Source: an uncultured Prevotella sp.
GTDB taxonomy: Bacteria > Bacteroidota > Bacteroidia > Bacteroidales > Bacteroidaceae
NCBI GenBank assembly: GCA_934272845.1
Contig: CAKQSF010000004.1
Location: forward strand, 62,001-126,000
Direction: 5' to 3'
DNA length: 64,000 bases
Shown: positions 9,002-59,177 of the stretch, one piece after another
Layout: each line of letters begins with the position of its first letter
Position numbering within the stretch: position 1 is the stretch's first letter
Translations under genes and position numbers: made by a program
Notes under the pieces: model-generated
Seen by the model: only the letters and a program-made list of their open reading frames with translations
What the model was told of the DNA's origin: nothing
The model's database searches: none

Positions 9002-10369
9002 TTAGATGCCTGTATAGTTGCTTGGTGTTATCGCCATCAACTCAGCCTTTACTGCATCGCTAACCTCCAGCGTCTTGATGAAGTTGTGAATGGTCTCCTC
9101 GTCCATGTGTTTATTGGTGCGTGTCAGAGCCTTCAGAGCCTCGTATGGGTGTGGATAAGCCTCGCGGCGCAGTATGGTCTGTATTGCCTCTGCCACTACA
9201 GCCCATGTGTTGTCAAGGTCTTTCTGCAGTGCCTCCTCGTTAAGGATGAGTTTACGCAGGCCTTTCAGTGTGCTCTGTATGGCGATAATGCTGTGGCCGA
9301 GAGGCACACCGATGTTACGAAGCACGGTAGAGTCTGTAAGGTCACGCTGCAAGCGGCTTATAGGCAACTTCTGGGCGAGGAATTGCAGGATGGCGTTGGC
9401 GATGCCAAGGTTGCCCTCAGAGTTCTCATAGTCAATAGGGTTAACCTTATGAGGCATTGCGCTTGAGCCTACTTCGCCAGCCTTAATCTTTTGTTTGAAG
9501 TACTCCATGGAGATGTACATCCAGAAGTCGCGGTCGAGGTCGATTATTATTGTGTTGATACGGCGCACAGCATCGAAGATGGCTCCGAGGTGGTCGTAGT
9601 TTGAAATCTGCGTAGTGTACTGCTCACGCTGCAGTCCTAACTTCTCGCTTACGAACTTATTGCCGAACTCCCTCCAGTCATACTCAGGGTATGCCACGTG
9701 GTGAGCGTTGAAGTTGCCAGTCGCTCCGCCAAACTTAGCGGTGTATTTACACTGCTTTAACAGGTCGAGTTGTTCCTGCAAACGGTACACGAATACCATA
9801 ATCTCTTTGCCCAAACGTGTTGGAGAGGCAGGCTGACCGTGTGTTTTCGCAAGCATTGGCACATCTTTCCATTCCGTAGCGTATTCGTTAAGTTGCGCTA
9901 TCAACTCCTCTACTTGTGGAATATAAACCTCAGCGAGGGCTTCCTTTACAGACAGAGGCACACTGGTGTTGTTAATATCCTGCGAAGTTAAACCAAAGTG
10001 GATAAACTCGCGGCTCTGTTCGAAGTAACCCTTACCGAGTTTCTCGTTCTCTAAGGCATCGAGTTTCTCCTTTATGAAATACTCTACAGCCTTAACGTCG
10101 TGGTTGGTCACCTTCTCTATGTCCTTTACGCGCTGTGCGTCTTCCTCAGAGAAGTTCTGGTATATGTCGCGTAACAGTGGGAAGATACCTTTGTCGAAGT
10201 CTTTCAACTGCGGCAGAGGCAGTTCGCATAGTGTTATGAAATATTCAATTTCTACACGCACCCTGTACTTGATGAGGGCGTACTCAGAGAAGAAACGTGC
10301 CAGTTCTTCTGTCTTTCCACGGTAGCGACCGTCGATAGGTGAGATGGCTGTAAGTAGATCGAGATTCAT
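9002..10369 (-). CDS. purB: Adenylosuccinate lyase
   Basis: Catalyses two fumarate-releasing steps: SAICAR to AICAR in purine synthesis, and adenylosuccinate to AMP. The start is placed at the ATG giving MNLDLLTAISPIDGRY, as in other PurB proteins. A longer frame could start at 10405, but that ATG lies upstream of the expected transcript start because the TACCTTTGT promoter element is at 10402-10410. The protein is about 455 residues, with the fumarase/aspartase signature GSSAMPHKVNPI and the HGQPASPTRLGKE and TSQDINNT segments. Confidence 0.96.
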   Translation of the reverse strand: MNLDLLTAISPIDGRYRGKTEELARFFSEYALIKYRVRVEIEYFITLCELPLPQLKDFDKGIFPLLRDIYQNFSEEDAQRVKDIEKVTNHDVKAVEYFIKEKLDALENEKLGKGYFEQSREFIHFGLTSQDINNTSVPLSVKEALAEVYIPQVEELIAQLNEYATEWKDVPMLAKTHGQPASPTRLGKEIMVFVYRLQEQLDLLKQCKYTAKFGGATGNFNAHHVAYPEYDWREFGNKFVSEKLGLQREQYTTQISNYDHLGAIFDAVRRINTIIIDLDRDFWMYISMEYFKQKIKAGEVGSSAMPHKVNPIDYENSEGNLGIANAILQFLAQKLPISRLQRDLTDSTVLRNIGVPLGHSIIAIQSTLKGLRKLILNEEALQKDLDNTWAVVAEAIQTILRREAYPHPYEALKALTRTNKHMDEETIHNFIKTLEVSDAVKAELMAITPSNYTGI

Positions 10370-33136: not shown

Positions 33137-34207
33137 ATGTTTCCTATTCTGACAATAACAGGTTCTGACAGCACTGGCGGCTCAGGCATACAGGCGGACA
33201 TACGTACTATTACGGCATTGGGAGGACATCCCTTGACTGCCATAACATCGGTAACAGTACAGGACAGCAACGGCATACGCAGAATACACAACCTGCCATT
33301 CGACTTGGTAACAGATCAGGTACGCTCCGTGATGCAGGAGACGCATCCCTTGGCGGTGAAAGTAGGACTCGTACGTGACGTGGAGACCATTAAAGCACTG
33401 CGCAATGACATCATTGCGTGTCGCAGTATTGTGTGTGACCCTGGCTTCCTCTCATCACATGGTACACAACTGGTACCTGATGAGGCTGTGGAGGCTGTCA
33501 AGCAATTTCTTGTTCCAGAGGCTGCGCTACTTTTGTTACGCTGCAACGAAGCCGAGAGACTTGTGGGATACACAGTGGCCACAGACGATGATATGCTGAA
33601 AGCAGCACGCGAACTTATGGCTATGGGAGCAAAGGCAGTACTGCTAAGAGGTGGAAGGCAGACCGACGGAATGCTGACAGCACTATTGGCGACAACGAAC
33701 GAGCATACGTTTTATACCTCACGCAACACTGACGGATGGCAGAGACATGGAGTAGGAGGAGCACTGTCAACTGCGATAACGACACGATTAGCGTTCGGAG
33801 ACGACCTGAAGACAGCGATAAAGAGGGCACATGACTATATGCACCGGCTCGTAACGTATTCTGTAACAGCACGCACTAAGGGAGAAAGACCTGCTGATTT
33901 GTATAATAAGTTTATGTCGTTGCTGGCGCAAAACTATCGCTACGAACACGGAGTGGCGTTTTATGCTGATGCTTTGGCTATCAGCACACGTTATCTTTCG
34001 CAGATAACAGAGAAAGTAATGAGCCGCACACCGAAGCAAATAATAGCCGACTACCTAATGCAGGAAGCACGCGCTATGCTCGAAACATCAACACTCACCA
34101 TACAGGAGGTGGCAGACAAATTAGGATTCCTGTCGCAGTCACAGTTCTCTAACTTCTTCCATTTTCAACAAAAATGCACACCTAAGGAATACAGAGAAAA
34201 GAAATAA
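33137..34207 (+). CDS. ThiD/PdxK-like kinase domain fused to an AraC-type regulator
   Basis: 356 residues. Residues 1-240 look like hydroxymethylpyrimidine/pyridoxal kinase of the ribokinase superfamily: GSDSTGGSGIQADIRTITAL (9-28) and DPGFLSSHGTQLV (101-113) match the substrate loops of real ThiD. The GTGC motif that closes the active site (209-212 in the ThiD at 57.8 kb) is here GVGG (205-208), so kinase activity is doubtful. Residues 255-356 are an AraC-type DNA-binding domain with two helix-turn-helices (about 276-296 and 319-345, TIQEVADKLGFLSQSQFSNF). The gene sits directly upstream of pdxST. My inference is a vitamer-sensing transcription factor for B6 genes; HMP as ligand is the alternative. 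Confidence 0.85.
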   Translation: MFPILTITGSDSTGGSGIQADIRTITALGGHPLTAITSVTVQDSNGIRRIHNLPFDLVTDQVRSVMQETHPLAVKVGLVRDVETIKALRNDIIACRSIVCDPGFLSSHGTQLVPDEAVEAVKQFLVPEAALLLLRCNEAERLVGYTVATDDDMLKAARELMAMGAKAVLLRGGRQTDGMLTALLATTNEHTFYTSRNTDGWQRHGVGGALSTAITTRLAFGDDLKTAIKRAHDYMHRLVTYSVTARTKGERPADLYNKFMSLLAQNYRYEHGVAFYADALAISTRYLSQITEKVMSRTPKQIIADYLMQEARAMLETSTLTIQEVADKLGFLSQSQFSNFFHFQQKCTPKEYREKK

Positions 34208-34250
34208 GTTTATATTTTAGGAACAGTATTTTATAAAATAGGAACATATC

Positions 34251-34283
34251 TTTGCATGGTTCTATATTTGTTCGTACTTTTGC
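34251..34283 (+). promoter_or_regulatory. pdxST promoter
   Basis: TTTG at 34251-34254 and TACTTTTGC at 34275-34283, 20 bases apart. The TTTG is itself part of a second -7-like TATCTTTGC (34247-34255), so two overlapping promoters are possible. Transcripts from the downstream one would begin at the edge of the dispersed element at 34291. Confidence 0.65.
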
Positions 34284-34290
34284 AGGCGTA

Positions 34291-34486
34291 AGTGACGGTG
34301 AAAAAATAAATTGGTATAATTTATGTCATAGATTTTTGAGATAGTTTGGAGACATGAAGATGGAACAATGCGAGCATTGTGACTGATGAATGGCTCCAAA
34401 ATATCCAAAAAGATGTGACAAGACAACTTTATCTTAGACATTATTTACCTCGTTAAATTGTACCAAGTTATTTTTTTACCGTCACT
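34291..34486. repeat. Dispersed element family 1, copy 3 (pdxS leader)
   Basis: 196 bases with 26-base terminal inverted repeats starting AGTGACGGTGAAAAAATAAA (two mismatches). The ends differ from the AGTAAT copies, but the centre ATGAAGATGGAACAATG...GACTGATGAATGGC is shared. The central hairpin is CAATG-CGAG-CATTG, a compensated change from CGATG-CGAG-CATCG. It occupies nearly the whole untranslated leader of pdxS. Confidence 0.88.
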
Positions 34487-34516: not shown

Positions 34517-35389
34517 ATGGAAGATAGAACAACCCTTAACCGTAACCTGGCACAGATGCTGAAGGGCGGAGTTATCATGGACGTTACAACACCTGAACAG
34601 GCACGCATAGCAGAGGCTGCTGGTGCTTGCGCAGTAATGGCATTAGAGCGTATTCCTGCTGACATACGTGCTGCAGGAGGCGTAAGCCGTATGAGCGATC
34701 CTAAGATGATTAAGGGAATTCAGGAAGCAGTGAGCATTCCTGTAATGGCAAAGTGCCGTATAGGTCATTTCGTTGAGGCTCAGATTCTTGAGGCTATAGA
34801 GATTGACTACATTGACGAGAGTGAGGTACTGTCACCTGCTGACGATGTTTACCACATCAACAAGCGTGAGTTTAAGGTTCCGTTCGTATGCGGAGCGAAA
34901 GACCTTGGCGAGGCATTGCGCCGCATCAACGAGGGTGCTACGATGATTCGTACCAAGGGAGAACCAGGAACTGGTGACGTAATACAGGCTGTTCGCCACA
35001 TGCGCATGATGCAGAGCGAGATGCGCCGACTTGTTTCTATGTCAGAAGATGAACTCTATGAGGCAGCAAAGCAGTTGCGCGTGCCTTACGACCTCGTTAA
35101 GTACGTTCACGAGAACGGTAAACTTCCTGTTGTTAACTTTGCTGCTGGTGGCGTTGCTACACCTGCTGACGCTGCGCTGATGATGCAACTTGGCGCTGAG
35201 GGCGTATTCGTAGGAAGCGGCATATTCAAGAGCGGTAACCCAGAGAAACGTGCACAGGCTATCGTGAAGGCTGTGACAAACTATCAGAATCCTAAGATTA
35301 TAGCAGAACTTTCTGAAGACCTCGGTGAGGCTATGGTAGGCATCAACGAGAGCGAAATAGAACTGCTCATGGCAGAGAGAGGCAAGTAA
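34517..35389 (+). CDS. pdxS: Pyridoxal 5'-phosphate synthase subunit PdxS
   Basis: A 290-residue TIM-barrel subunit that makes PLP from ribose 5-phosphate, glyceraldehyde 3-phosphate and ammonia. Motifs include [20 protein letters not shown], the Schiff-base lysine in [10 protein letters not shown], and [19 protein letters not shown]. Length is typical. Its stop overlaps the pdxT start (TAATG), indicating coupled translation. Confidence 0.98.
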
Positions 35390-35973
35390 TGAAAAGAGTT
35401 GCTATACTTGCTCTGCAAGGAGCGTTTGCTGAACACGAGCAGATGTTGCACCGCTTAGGAGCGGAAACCATGCAGATACGTAACCTTGCCGACTGGAATG
35501 AGTTTCTTGGCGAGGCTGGATTGGCAGGCGACTTCAAAGGGCTCGGATTGATAATACCTGGTGGTGAGAGCACTGCCATGATGCGTATAATGCGCGATGA
35601 GGCTCTCTTTGACCCCTTGCAGAAAGCCATCCGTGCAGGACTGCCAGTCTTTGGCACTTGTGCCGGACTGATATTGCTCGACAAGGTACACCTCGACACG
35701 ATGAACATCACTGCACTGCGCAATGCTTACGGACGCCAATTGGGTAGTTTCTACACCGAAGCGGAGTTTAAGGGCATTGACTCTAAGGTGCCAATGACAT
35801 TCATTCGTGCGCCATACATAAGTGAAGTGGGAGAGGGCGTTGATGTACTCGCCACGGTAGACGGACGTATCATTGCGGCACGTCAGGGCAACCAACTCGT
35901 GACTGCGTTCCATCCAGAACTGAATGAAGACACACGTGTACACGAATACTTCCTTAGTTTCGTGACAGAATAA
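35389..35973 (+). CDS. pdxT: Pyridoxal 5'-phosphate synthase glutaminase PdxT
   Basis: A 194-residue class I glutamine amidotransferase that supplies ammonia to PdxS. It has IIPGGESTAMMRIM, the nucleophile Cys in FGTCAGLILL, and the His/Glu pair in AFHPELNED. It overlaps pdxS by one base. Confidence 0.97.
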   Translation: MKRVAILALQGAFAEHEQMLHRLGAETMQIRNLADWNEFLGEAGLAGDFKGLGLIIPGGESTAMMRIMRDEALFDPLQKAIRAGLPVFGTCAGLILLDKVHLDTMNITALRNAYGRQLGSFYTEAEFKGIDSKVPMTFIRAPYISEVGEGVDVLATVDGRIIAARQGNQLVTAFHPELNEDTRVHEYFLSFVTE

Positions 35974-35981
35974 ATACTTTA

Positions 35982-36177
35982 AGTAATATTGAAAAAATAA
36001 CTTACGCAGTTTTTACCTCAGATTGCTGAGATATTTTGGGGATATGAAGATGGAGCGATGCGAGCATCGTGACTGATGAATAGCCACAAAATAGCCAGCA
36101 AGATGAGATAAAAAATGCGCAAGAAAACATTACTCTAACAATATAAAAATTGAATAAGTTATTTTTTTAATATTACT
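35982..36177. repeat. Dispersed element family 1, copy 4 (after pdxT)
   Basis: 196 bases, ends AGTAATATTGAAAAAATAAC and its complement, flanked by TA on both sides. It is almost identical to copy 2 and begins 8 bases after the pdxT stop. Confidence 0.9.
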
Positions 36178-36224
36178 TAGGTATGCAAATGAATACATGC
36201 CATTAAAGAAAAGAAAGAAATAAA

Positions 36225-57775: not shown

Positions 57776-57806
57776 CGTAGTTTTAGTATTGTTTAGTATC
57801 AGTACT

Positions 57807-57861: not shown

Positions 57862-58638
57862 CTAAAACAACCACAGCGGTCCGTTGCCCTTTCCGATGTG
57901 TAGGTTGCGCCCTCCGTTGATGCCTTTGTCTATCACCTCCTTGCCCACCTTTACCGCTTCAGGCAGCGAGAGCCCAGTGGCGAGTCCCGTAGCGATGGCA
58001 CTCGACAGCGTGCATCCAGTGCCGTGAAGGTTCGTTGTCGTTATGCGTGGCGAGCAATATTCGTGCGTTGTGCCATCAGTCGTGAAGAGAACATCGCGCA
58101 TTATGCTTCCCTCACCGTGTCCTCCCTTTAAGAGAAAGGCAATACCATATTCCTTTACGAGTACGTGCCCTATCTTTTCAAGGTCGTATTCGCCCTCGTT
58201 GCCACTGAGACGCAGAGCCTCTGGTATGTTAGGCGTGACGAGAGTGCAGAGTGGGAAGAGTTCTTTCTTGATGTACTCCACACATTCGTTGCTCATCAAC
58301 TGTGTGCCACTGGTAGATATCATCACAGGGTCGCAGACGGTGGGGAGACCGAATTGCTTTATGAATTTTACGATGACGCGCGCTGACTCCACGCAAGGTA
58401 TCATGCCAATCTTTATCGCCTCCACATTGATGTCGCTGAAGACAGATTGCAACTGCGCCTCTAACATATCCTCAGGCACCGTCATTACCCTTTGCACCCC
58501 TACGGTGTTCTGCGCCGTAAGAGCCGTGGGCACGGTCACGGCATAATGCCCTAACGACGTAATAGTCTTCAAATCCTGCTGTATTCCAGCCCCCGCCGAT
58601 GTATCACTACCTGCTATTGTAAGGATTATATTCTTCAT
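57862..58638 (-). CDS. thiD: Hydroxymethylpyrimidine (phosphate) kinase
   Basis: About 258 residues. The start is set at the ATG at 58638, which overlaps the upstream stop as ATGA and matches the usual MKNIILTIAGSD beginning; a start three codons earlier (58647) is possible. It phosphorylates HMP and HMP-P to the pyrophosphate for thiamine. Motifs: GSDTSAGAGIQQDLKTI, DPVMISTSGTQLM, TPNIPEA and an intact GTGCTLSSAIA. It serves as the in-window control for the degenerate kinase domain at 33137. Confidence 0.95.
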   Translation of the reverse strand: MKNIILTIAGSDTSAGAGIQQDLKTITSLGHYAVTVPTALTAQNTVGVQRVMTVPEDMLEAQLQSVFSDINVEAIKIGMIPCVESARVIVKFIKQFGLPTVCDPVMISTSGTQLMSNECVEYIKKELFPLCTLVTPNIPEALRLSGNEGEYDLEKIGHVLVKEYGIAFLLKGGHGEGSIMRDVLFTTDGTTHEYCSPRITTTNLHGTGCTLSSAIATGLATGLSLPEAVKVGKEVIDKGINGGRNLHIGKGNGPLWLF

Positions 58639-59177
58639 TTTCTCCATGCATCGCCTAATATCATTGCTCCCCCAAAGCCCATATCCTCTACCTCTTTCAT
58701 GCGGTTGAAGGTGACACCGCCAAGTGCAAAGACCTTATTGTCTATCACTCCATGCGCCTTTGCCGCCAATATCTCCTCGCGACTGAAGGCGGAATGATAA
58801 CCTATCTTAGAGATAGAGTCGTAGATAGGCGACAGACTAACGTAATTGCAGCGGTCTTTCCACTCTTCAACCTCTGCCAAACTGTGGCAACTTTTGCTCA
58901 CGCTGCCCGTCCAACCAGCAGGTGGTTGGGGATTGCGCGAGTTGAGATGTACACCGTAAAGACCGTATTTCACGGCGAGAGAATGATGGTCGTGCAGTAC
59001 GAGTCGGTCCCAACAATCACGCGGTATCTCGTTAATCAGTCGTTCTACCTCCTCTTTCGTAGCCTGAGGTTTGCGTATATGCAGCAAGTCCACATTGCCT
59101 TGACGGAGCAGACAGGCTATGCGCTCTGCCTCACCGCCAAAGAATGTGGGCTTGGTTATTATCACTGTAGTGAACAT
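58635..59177 (-). CDS. ThiE/TenI-family protein
   Basis: A short (180-residue) TIM-barrel relative of thiamine phosphate synthase. It keeps HIRKPQ and LHDHHSLAVKYGLYGVHL, but the second magnesium-binding Asp of ThiE (Asp82 in the GKKD of the full ThiE at 63.3 kb) is Asn82 in NSRNP. That favours a TenI-like role (thiazole tautomerase) over thiamine phosphate synthesis. It begins immediately after the thiH stop and overlaps thiD, so it is firmly within the thi operon. Confidence 0.82.
   Translation of the reverse strand: MFTTVIITKPTFFGGEAERIACLLRQGNVDLLHIRKPQATKEEVERLINEIPRDCWDRLVLHDHHSLAVKYGLYGVHLNSRNPQPPAGWTGSVSKSCHSLAEVEEWKDRCNYVSLSPIYDSISKIGYHSAFSREEILAAKAHGVIDNKVFALGGVTFNRMKEVEDMGFGGAMILGDAWRK

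Follow-up and report, generated by a model that had tools for sequence, protein, structure and literature searches.

The stretch of DNA analyzed here, referred to as the window, comprises 64,000 nt from an uncultured Prevotella sp. (contig CAKQSF010000004.1, assembly GCA_934272845.1, positions 62,001-126,000). At 33137-34207 of its plus strand, an open reading frame (ORF) with an ATG start codes for a protein of 356 aa, in which a domain related to the vitamin kinases ThiD and PdxK is fused to an AraC-type DNA-binding domain. The genes pdxS and pdxT, coding for the subunits of pyridoxal 5'-phosphate (PLP) synthase, are located downstream. We consider it likely that the fusion protein is an enzyme-derived one-component sensor of a B6 vitamer, which controls pdxST. 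Its kinase domain has lost catalytic residues and kept the substrate loops, its gene is linked to pdxST, and a conserved site is present at the pdxS promoter. The original prediction for this locus, an enzyme recast as a regulator beside pdxST, is supported in those parts that can be tested on sequence.

Domain architecture and catalytic residues of the fusion protein

The kinase half of the protein matched the Pfam model Phos_pyr_kin at residues 11-246 (1.1e-57), and the C-terminal part matched HTH_18 at residues 276-354 (2.6e-18) and HTH_AraC at residues 316-353, which bears out the original claim of a ThiD-like kinase domain joined to AraC helix-turn-helix (HTH) motifs. The HTH_18 score of 66.5 bits, against a cut-off of 33.6, assigns the protein to the AraC/XylS family. 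Both Phos_pyr_kin and HTH_18 were matched (E ≤ 0.001) by 66/66 members of an alignment (A5) composed of the window protein, 53 of the 120 listed proteins, and 12 loci. The fold and the substrate-loop residues place the kinase half in the ThiD/ribokinase superfamily by homology. With the NCBIfam model of hydroxymethylpyrimidine phosphate (HMP-P) kinase, TIGR00097, the fusion scored 190.9 bits, under the cut-off that the separate ThiD of the window exceeds (Table 1), and the best score with the pyridoxal-kinase models was 113.4 bits. By these measures, the fusion is an AraC-family protein by its HTH and of the ThiD fold by descent, and the cut-off and active-site motif set it apart from ThiD enzymes. 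Source names exist for 6/120 listed homologs, each reading hydroxymethylpyrimidine (HMP)/HMP-P kinase.

The conservation of individual residues was counted on an alignment with Escherichia coli ThiD, which contained 54 full-length rows (the window protein and 53 of the 120 listed proteins), 9 short rows, and 9 ThiD rows; L009, L144, and L131, whose form falls between full and short, were excluded. In E. coli ThiD numbering, Lys176 is replaced by Arg, Thr211 by Val or Ile, and Cys213 by Gly, Ala, or Ser in 54/54 full-length rows, while Thr211 is present in 8/9 and Cys213 in 9/9 ThiD rows. Asn139 is replaced by Arg or Lys in 53/54 full-length rows, and Asp105 is kept in 20/54. We take Lys176 (in the motif KGGH) to belong to the ATP site, Thr211 to the anion hole, and Cys213 (in GTGC) to be catalytic. 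The window protein reads RGGR for KGGH and GVGG for GTGC; the latter replacement had been noted originally and is confirmed by the alignment (Table 1). On the substrate side, G11, D13, G19, Q21, D23, K77, and G79 are invariant in all full-length (54/54) and short (9/9) rows. The loops GSD, GxQxD, and KxG are unchanged in 63/63 rows, despite identities to the window protein down to 35-39%, and the retained loop named in the original prediction does read GSDSTGGSGIQAD. Gln44 of ThiD, presumably a substrate contact, is retained in 42/54 full-length and 9/9 short rows, and an Arg at window residue 80 is newly conserved (47/54 and 9/9). The proposed check of ATP against substrate residues was answered by replaced ATP-site and catalytic positions next to invariant substrate loops, with damage that extends beyond GTGC alone. 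The kinase half looks dead at several positions, and the loops of the vitamin pocket appear to be kept.

A shortened form of the fusion (~290-320 aa), the commoner type among the family genomes described below as judged by ORF length, is missing the greater part of residues 140-200 and with it the ATP-site loop. The HMP-P kinase model was nevertheless matched by 33/33 aligned short members; in one of them (L132), the TIGR00097 match of 146.4 bits spans the first 131 model positions. The predicted structure of the short form (pLDDT 88) superposes on the ThiD family at residues 2-183. The shortened group (support 84/85) has the full-length proteins L009 and L144 as its sisters, a topology suggestive of loss of the ATP half inside that branch. 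One genome (G597) carries two copies of pdxS, both immediately preceded by a separate short fusion.

Linkage to pdxST and a conserved site in front of pdxS

In the phylogenetic tree, 29 fusions are placed on one side of a branch and 17 ThiDs on the other, with a support of 100/99. Linkage was studied in 301 genomes from the family of G001, the Prevotellaceae metagenome-assembled genome that is the source of L001, the locus of the nearest relative; 59 of them carry pdxS and 242 do not. The fusion is adjacent to pdxS (≤0.7 kb) in 45/59 pdxS genomes and 2-8 kb away in another 6/59, which gives 51/59 with the fusion next to pdxS or in its vicinity. Among the matches listed for the 242 pdxS-negative genomes, no fusion was found. 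In a search with the HTH and linker, the best 52 of the matches listed (down to 131.8 bits) were all in pdxS genomes, followed by 7 (128.9-121.9 bits) in pdxS-negative genomes; of these 7, the 6 retrieved have AraC-type domains only. Since a true fusion (G580) scores just 121.7 bits, under those 7, some pdxS-negative genome may still carry a diverged fusion. In a sample of 393 genomes of the order, searched genome-wide for the full-length form, all 6 full-length fusions were in pdxS genomes. Among the best 80 of 592 homologous loci, 14 covered the fusion and were used; 12 of these 14 genomes have pdxS, the exceptions being G012 and G013. A search of 5 pdxS genomes for PdxJ found none. Pairwise distances of the fusion and PdxS correlate (55 pairs, r 0.78, against 0.18 for the best of 999 permutations). 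Fisher's test gave p = 1e-49, which overstates independence because the genomes share descent. The fusion does track pdxS across the genomes of this family, as had been proposed for checking.

The region 34208-34290, named earlier as the promoter region, contains both a conserved operator-like site and a pdxS promoter, which we take to be of the Bacteroidetes type. Within 34211-34282, two GGAACA repeats at 21 bp spacing are followed by TTTG, 20 nt, and TACTTTTG. A sigma-70 promoter was set aside in favor of the Bacteroidetes-type promoter after a scan that gave 10 matches vs. 5.9 +/- 2.4 expected. Over the 40 nt before TTTG, seven tandem loci gave 462/840 pairwise matches vs. 245 +/- 12 (maximum 299) in 5000 shuffles, which leave common descent in place. 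A matrix built from 8 other genomes and run on both strands of the window ranked position 34211 first (19.0 vs. 13.3 for the next match), and with the promoter added, the same site scored 43.9 vs. 18.9. For L120, L121, and the divergent loci, the anchors of the promoter had been placed by eye before the shuffle and matrix tests. In leave-one-out analysis, the own site was ranked first in 7/8 training loci.

A nine-site matrix was then applied to 18 further loci, and the best match was found just upstream of pdxS in 15/18; L122, L130, and L082 closely resemble training loci or one another. The 15 loci include four in which the fusion is at least 4 kb from pdxS (L004, L195, L196, L197) and one with the fusion on another contig (L110). 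On these 15 loci, chosen after the 18-locus scan with L085, L086, and L127 dropped, 200 column-permuted matrices placed their best match upstream of pdxS in 1.2 loci on average and in no more than 4 of 15. In L003, a second operator match is present in front of the fusion gene. Together with the result for L120 given below, this match hints at autoregulation.

Alternative explanations and proposed mechanism

Several observations weigh against control of pdxST by a B6-sensing fusion. No fusion was found in 8/59 family pdxS genomes, and in the order sample a full or short fusion stands beside pdxS in 8/19 loci, with none beside the other 11. G012 and G013 carry a short fusion and PdxJ, with no pdxS found. 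The homologs are not scattered without a link to B6, the pattern named beforehand as contrary to the prediction, although these two genomes carry the fusion with no pdxS found. With L120 left out of the matrix, its pdxS site fell outside the top three, and the best match was upstream of the fusion gene. In L085 and L086, whose operon starts with the fusion, the best matches were weak (10.2 and 11.2) and upstream of the fusion; in the fusion-less L127, the best match (11.1) was on the opposite strand at the pdxS start. A match upstream of pdxS also ranked first in 4/17 fusion-less pdxS loci, with scores of 9.5-12.5, and the genuine case L002 scores only 12.6. The short-variant loci gave rank 1 upstream of pdxS in 2/22, one of them weak, and a simple promoter scan likewise mostly failed there; these loci may use a diverged site. 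The position of the fusion behind a GH57 gene in four loci makes other targets possible, and its higher score with the HMP-P kinase model than with the pyridoxal-kinase models makes HMP possible as the ligand.

Some of the same loci show further features. No B6-related neighbor was recognised by eye beside the short fusions of G012 and G013 (L012, L015), and the gene next to that of L012 codes for a hybrid two-component regulator on the opposite strand. In L007, L196, L197, and L198, the fusion is away from pdxS and lies downstream of a GH57 glycosidase gene encoded in the same direction, with an overlap of 4 bp in the first three. Genome G659 (L195) carries a full fusion at 1844-2944, 7 kb from pdxS, and a kinase-less AraC piece of 111 aa (~9738-10112) directly upstream of pdxS; this piece may stem from a duplication followed by loss of the sensor.

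That the fusion regulates pdxST in response to HMP or HMP phosphate, tying B6 synthesis to thiamine status, seems unlikely. The sequence is nearest ThiD rather than PdxK, and the retention of Gln44 fits such a ligand. The linked genes, however, are pdxST, a thiamine gene was not noticed next to any of the inspected fusions (whose neighbors were without systematic annotation), and none of the eight best operator matches in the window lies in the thi cluster (57.9-60.3 kb), the nearest being an 11.3-bit match at 57797 on the minus strand, before a GH43-like gene. It is quite improbable that the remnant of the kinase has no ligand and acts in the pdxST regulator only as a dimerisation scaffold or protein interface. 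Short forms persist after shedding ~60 residues and the AraC-only piece of G659 is located beside pdxS, both as expected of a scaffold, but the three pocket loops are invariant at low overall identity, and G659 also carries the full fusion.

A fusion that regulates something else, and adjoins pdxST by common descent only, would agree with the non-independence of the co-occurrence counts, with G012 and G013, and with the GH57 loci. Against it, the arrangement varies between tandem, divergent, and kilobases away while the site remains at pdxS, and the operator matrix points to the pdxS promoter within the window; we regard this explanation as very improbable. Hardly credible is an active bifunctional pyridoxal/HMP kinase that also binds DNA and is autoregulated. 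The names of the homologs and the intact fold of the full-length forms speak for it, but GTGC, the ATP-site Lys, the anion-hole Thr, and Asn139 are replaced in 53-54 of 54 rows. An active kinase was rejected on these replacements and on the deletion of most of the ATP half in the sister group. In addition, the window contains another, intact ThiD, which makes the fusion dispensable as an HMP kinase.

With regard to the B6-sensing regulator, we infer DNA binding, the identity of the ligand, and the direction of control as follows. The former ThiD/PdxK-type kinase at the N-terminus would keep its vitamin pocket after the loss of ATP and catalytic machinery, and the C-terminal AraC domain would bind the predicted site, which directly adjoins the -33 box upstream of pdxS. 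The sensed ligand would be one of the B6 vitamers, with PLP or pyridoxal, as end product, the likeliest. Because of the position of the site and the analogy with PdxR, the ligand-free form is expected to activate pdxST and the B6 ligand to shut activation off. The pyridoxal kinase of E. coli is reported to be inhibited by PLP through slow and tight binding (PMC3404986), and ThiD2-type proteins are B6 kinases (PMC9997740). A broader proposal, for which we find belief and doubt in balance, is a Bacteroidales class of B6 regulators of single origin. Its kinase would have lost catalysis and gained basic residues at the former ATP/Mg site (Arg or Lys for Asn139, and Arg80), hence binding PLP itself; one branch would then have shed most of the ATP half, and pdxST would be under direct end-product control.

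Neighboring features and known systems

The features of the window are collected in Table 1. In gene order, the fusion does stand directly before pdxS and pdxT, as predicted, but the 309-bp gap contains a 196-bp inverted-repeat element; in L001, the gap is only 126 nt. The element (~200 nt) occurs in three copies in the window, at 34291-34486, at 35980-36179 (after pdxT), and around 28479. The outer arms vary among copies and match within each copy (GACGG/CCGTC, AATATT/AATATT, and AATGTT/AACATT, the third by eye), as though it were the pairing that is kept and not the sequence. The first copy begins 8 nt past the -7 box and would form most of the pdxS 5' leader. The elements had no Rfam match, and a known RNA switch ahead of pdxS was rejected, as no match at gathering score was found in 28000-64000. 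The separate ThiD predicted at 57862-58638 exists and keeps GTGC; its end is at 58647, and it is encoded on the minus strand. Between thiH and thiD (58635-59177, minus strand), a 180-aa protein of the ThiE/TenI family is encoded (Pfam TMP-TENI, 49.6 bits), which scored 43.5 bits with the ThiE equivalog model (cut-off 145.1) and is possibly a divergent ThiE or of the TenI type.

Table 1. Positions of the features discussed, in window coordinates.
Feature	Position	Strand	Basis
ThiD/PdxK-like (ribokinase-fold) domain, apparently dead, proposed ligand sensor	33137..33856	+	residues 1-240
GVGG replacing kinase GTGC	33749..33760	+	residues 205-208; alignment to E. coli ThiD
AraC-type double helix-turn-helix	33962..34198	+	residues 276-354; Pfam HTH_18, HTH_AraC
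Conserved operator-like site, GGAACA-N15-GGAACA in window; TTTT-N9/10-GGAA across genomes	34211..34250	+	matrix from 8 other genomes
pdxS promoter, presumably Bacteroidetes-type: -33 TTTG, 20-nt spacer, -7 TACTTTTG	34251..34282	+	same register in other genomes
Inverted-repeat (MITE-like) element between pdxS promoter and pdxS	34291..34486	.	33-nt arms, 91% complementary
pdxS, PLP synthase lyase subunit, proposed target	34517..35389	+	TIGR00343 508.3 bits, cut-off 438.45
pdxT, PLP synthase glutaminase subunit, proposed target	35389..35973	+	TIGR03800 206.3 bits, cut-off 105.55
ThiD, separate, intact, GTGC kept	57862..58647	-	TIGR00097 259.7 bits, cut-off 204.95; alignment

A B6-sensing fusion would account for how bacteria of the gut and rumen control B6 and would correct the misleading database name HMP/HMP-P kinase. 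In the sampled Prevotella-related bacteria with PdxST, the retired-kinase device usually occupies the place of PdxR. If true, a stepwise enzyme-to-sensor transition has been caught in living lineages, and the series from active kinase through dead full-length domain to half-domain sensor makes this change directly testable.

In the literature found, transcriptional control of PLP synthesis rests on the MocR-type PdxR, the apo form of which activates pdxST with PLP as the anti-activator (PMC5320631). The unrelated fusion is proposed by analogy to be, like PdxR in that account, an enzyme-derived sensor beside or divergent to pdxST, and its proximity to pdxST in the family (45/59 within 0.7 kb, 6 within ~8 kb, 8 with none found) agrees with this. 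PdxR consists of a GntR winged helix and an aminotransferase-like domain, whereas the fusion combines an AraC HTH with a dead ribokinase-fold kinase and showed only Phos_pyr_kin, HTH_18, and HTH_AraC (E ≤ 0.001); the difference from MocR/PdxR regulators suggested originally holds for the domains. The fusion shares fold and substrate loops with ThiD and ThiD2-type PdxK (COG0351) but is without their ATP and catalytic residues and has an extra DNA-binding domain, and its sister group is without most of the ATP half. With AraC/XylS proteins it has in common the C-terminal double HTH. The six unfused AraC proteins retrieved as nearest to its DNA-binding half (L187-L192, 279-300 aa) share linker and HTH with it and lack the kinase domain, while the sensor of the fusion is a former vitamin kinase. 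An AraC-like ligand-binding model was matched by 2/6 of them (L192 above the cut-off, L189 nearly), and proteins of this type are a possible source of the fusion HTH by domain swap.

In archaeal ThiR (HTH and ThiN), NadR, BirA, and ROK repressors, an enzyme domain is reused as a sensor together with a DNA-binding domain; the fusion differs from them in enzyme, DNA-binding family, and pathway. A literature search of titles and abstract starts, with most subscription journals outside its coverage, found no description of the fusion as a regulator, and ThiR as a regulator was likewise without a match. Our verdict is that the fusion joins the known enzyme-derived regulators and, as a B6 regulator, represents a new type.
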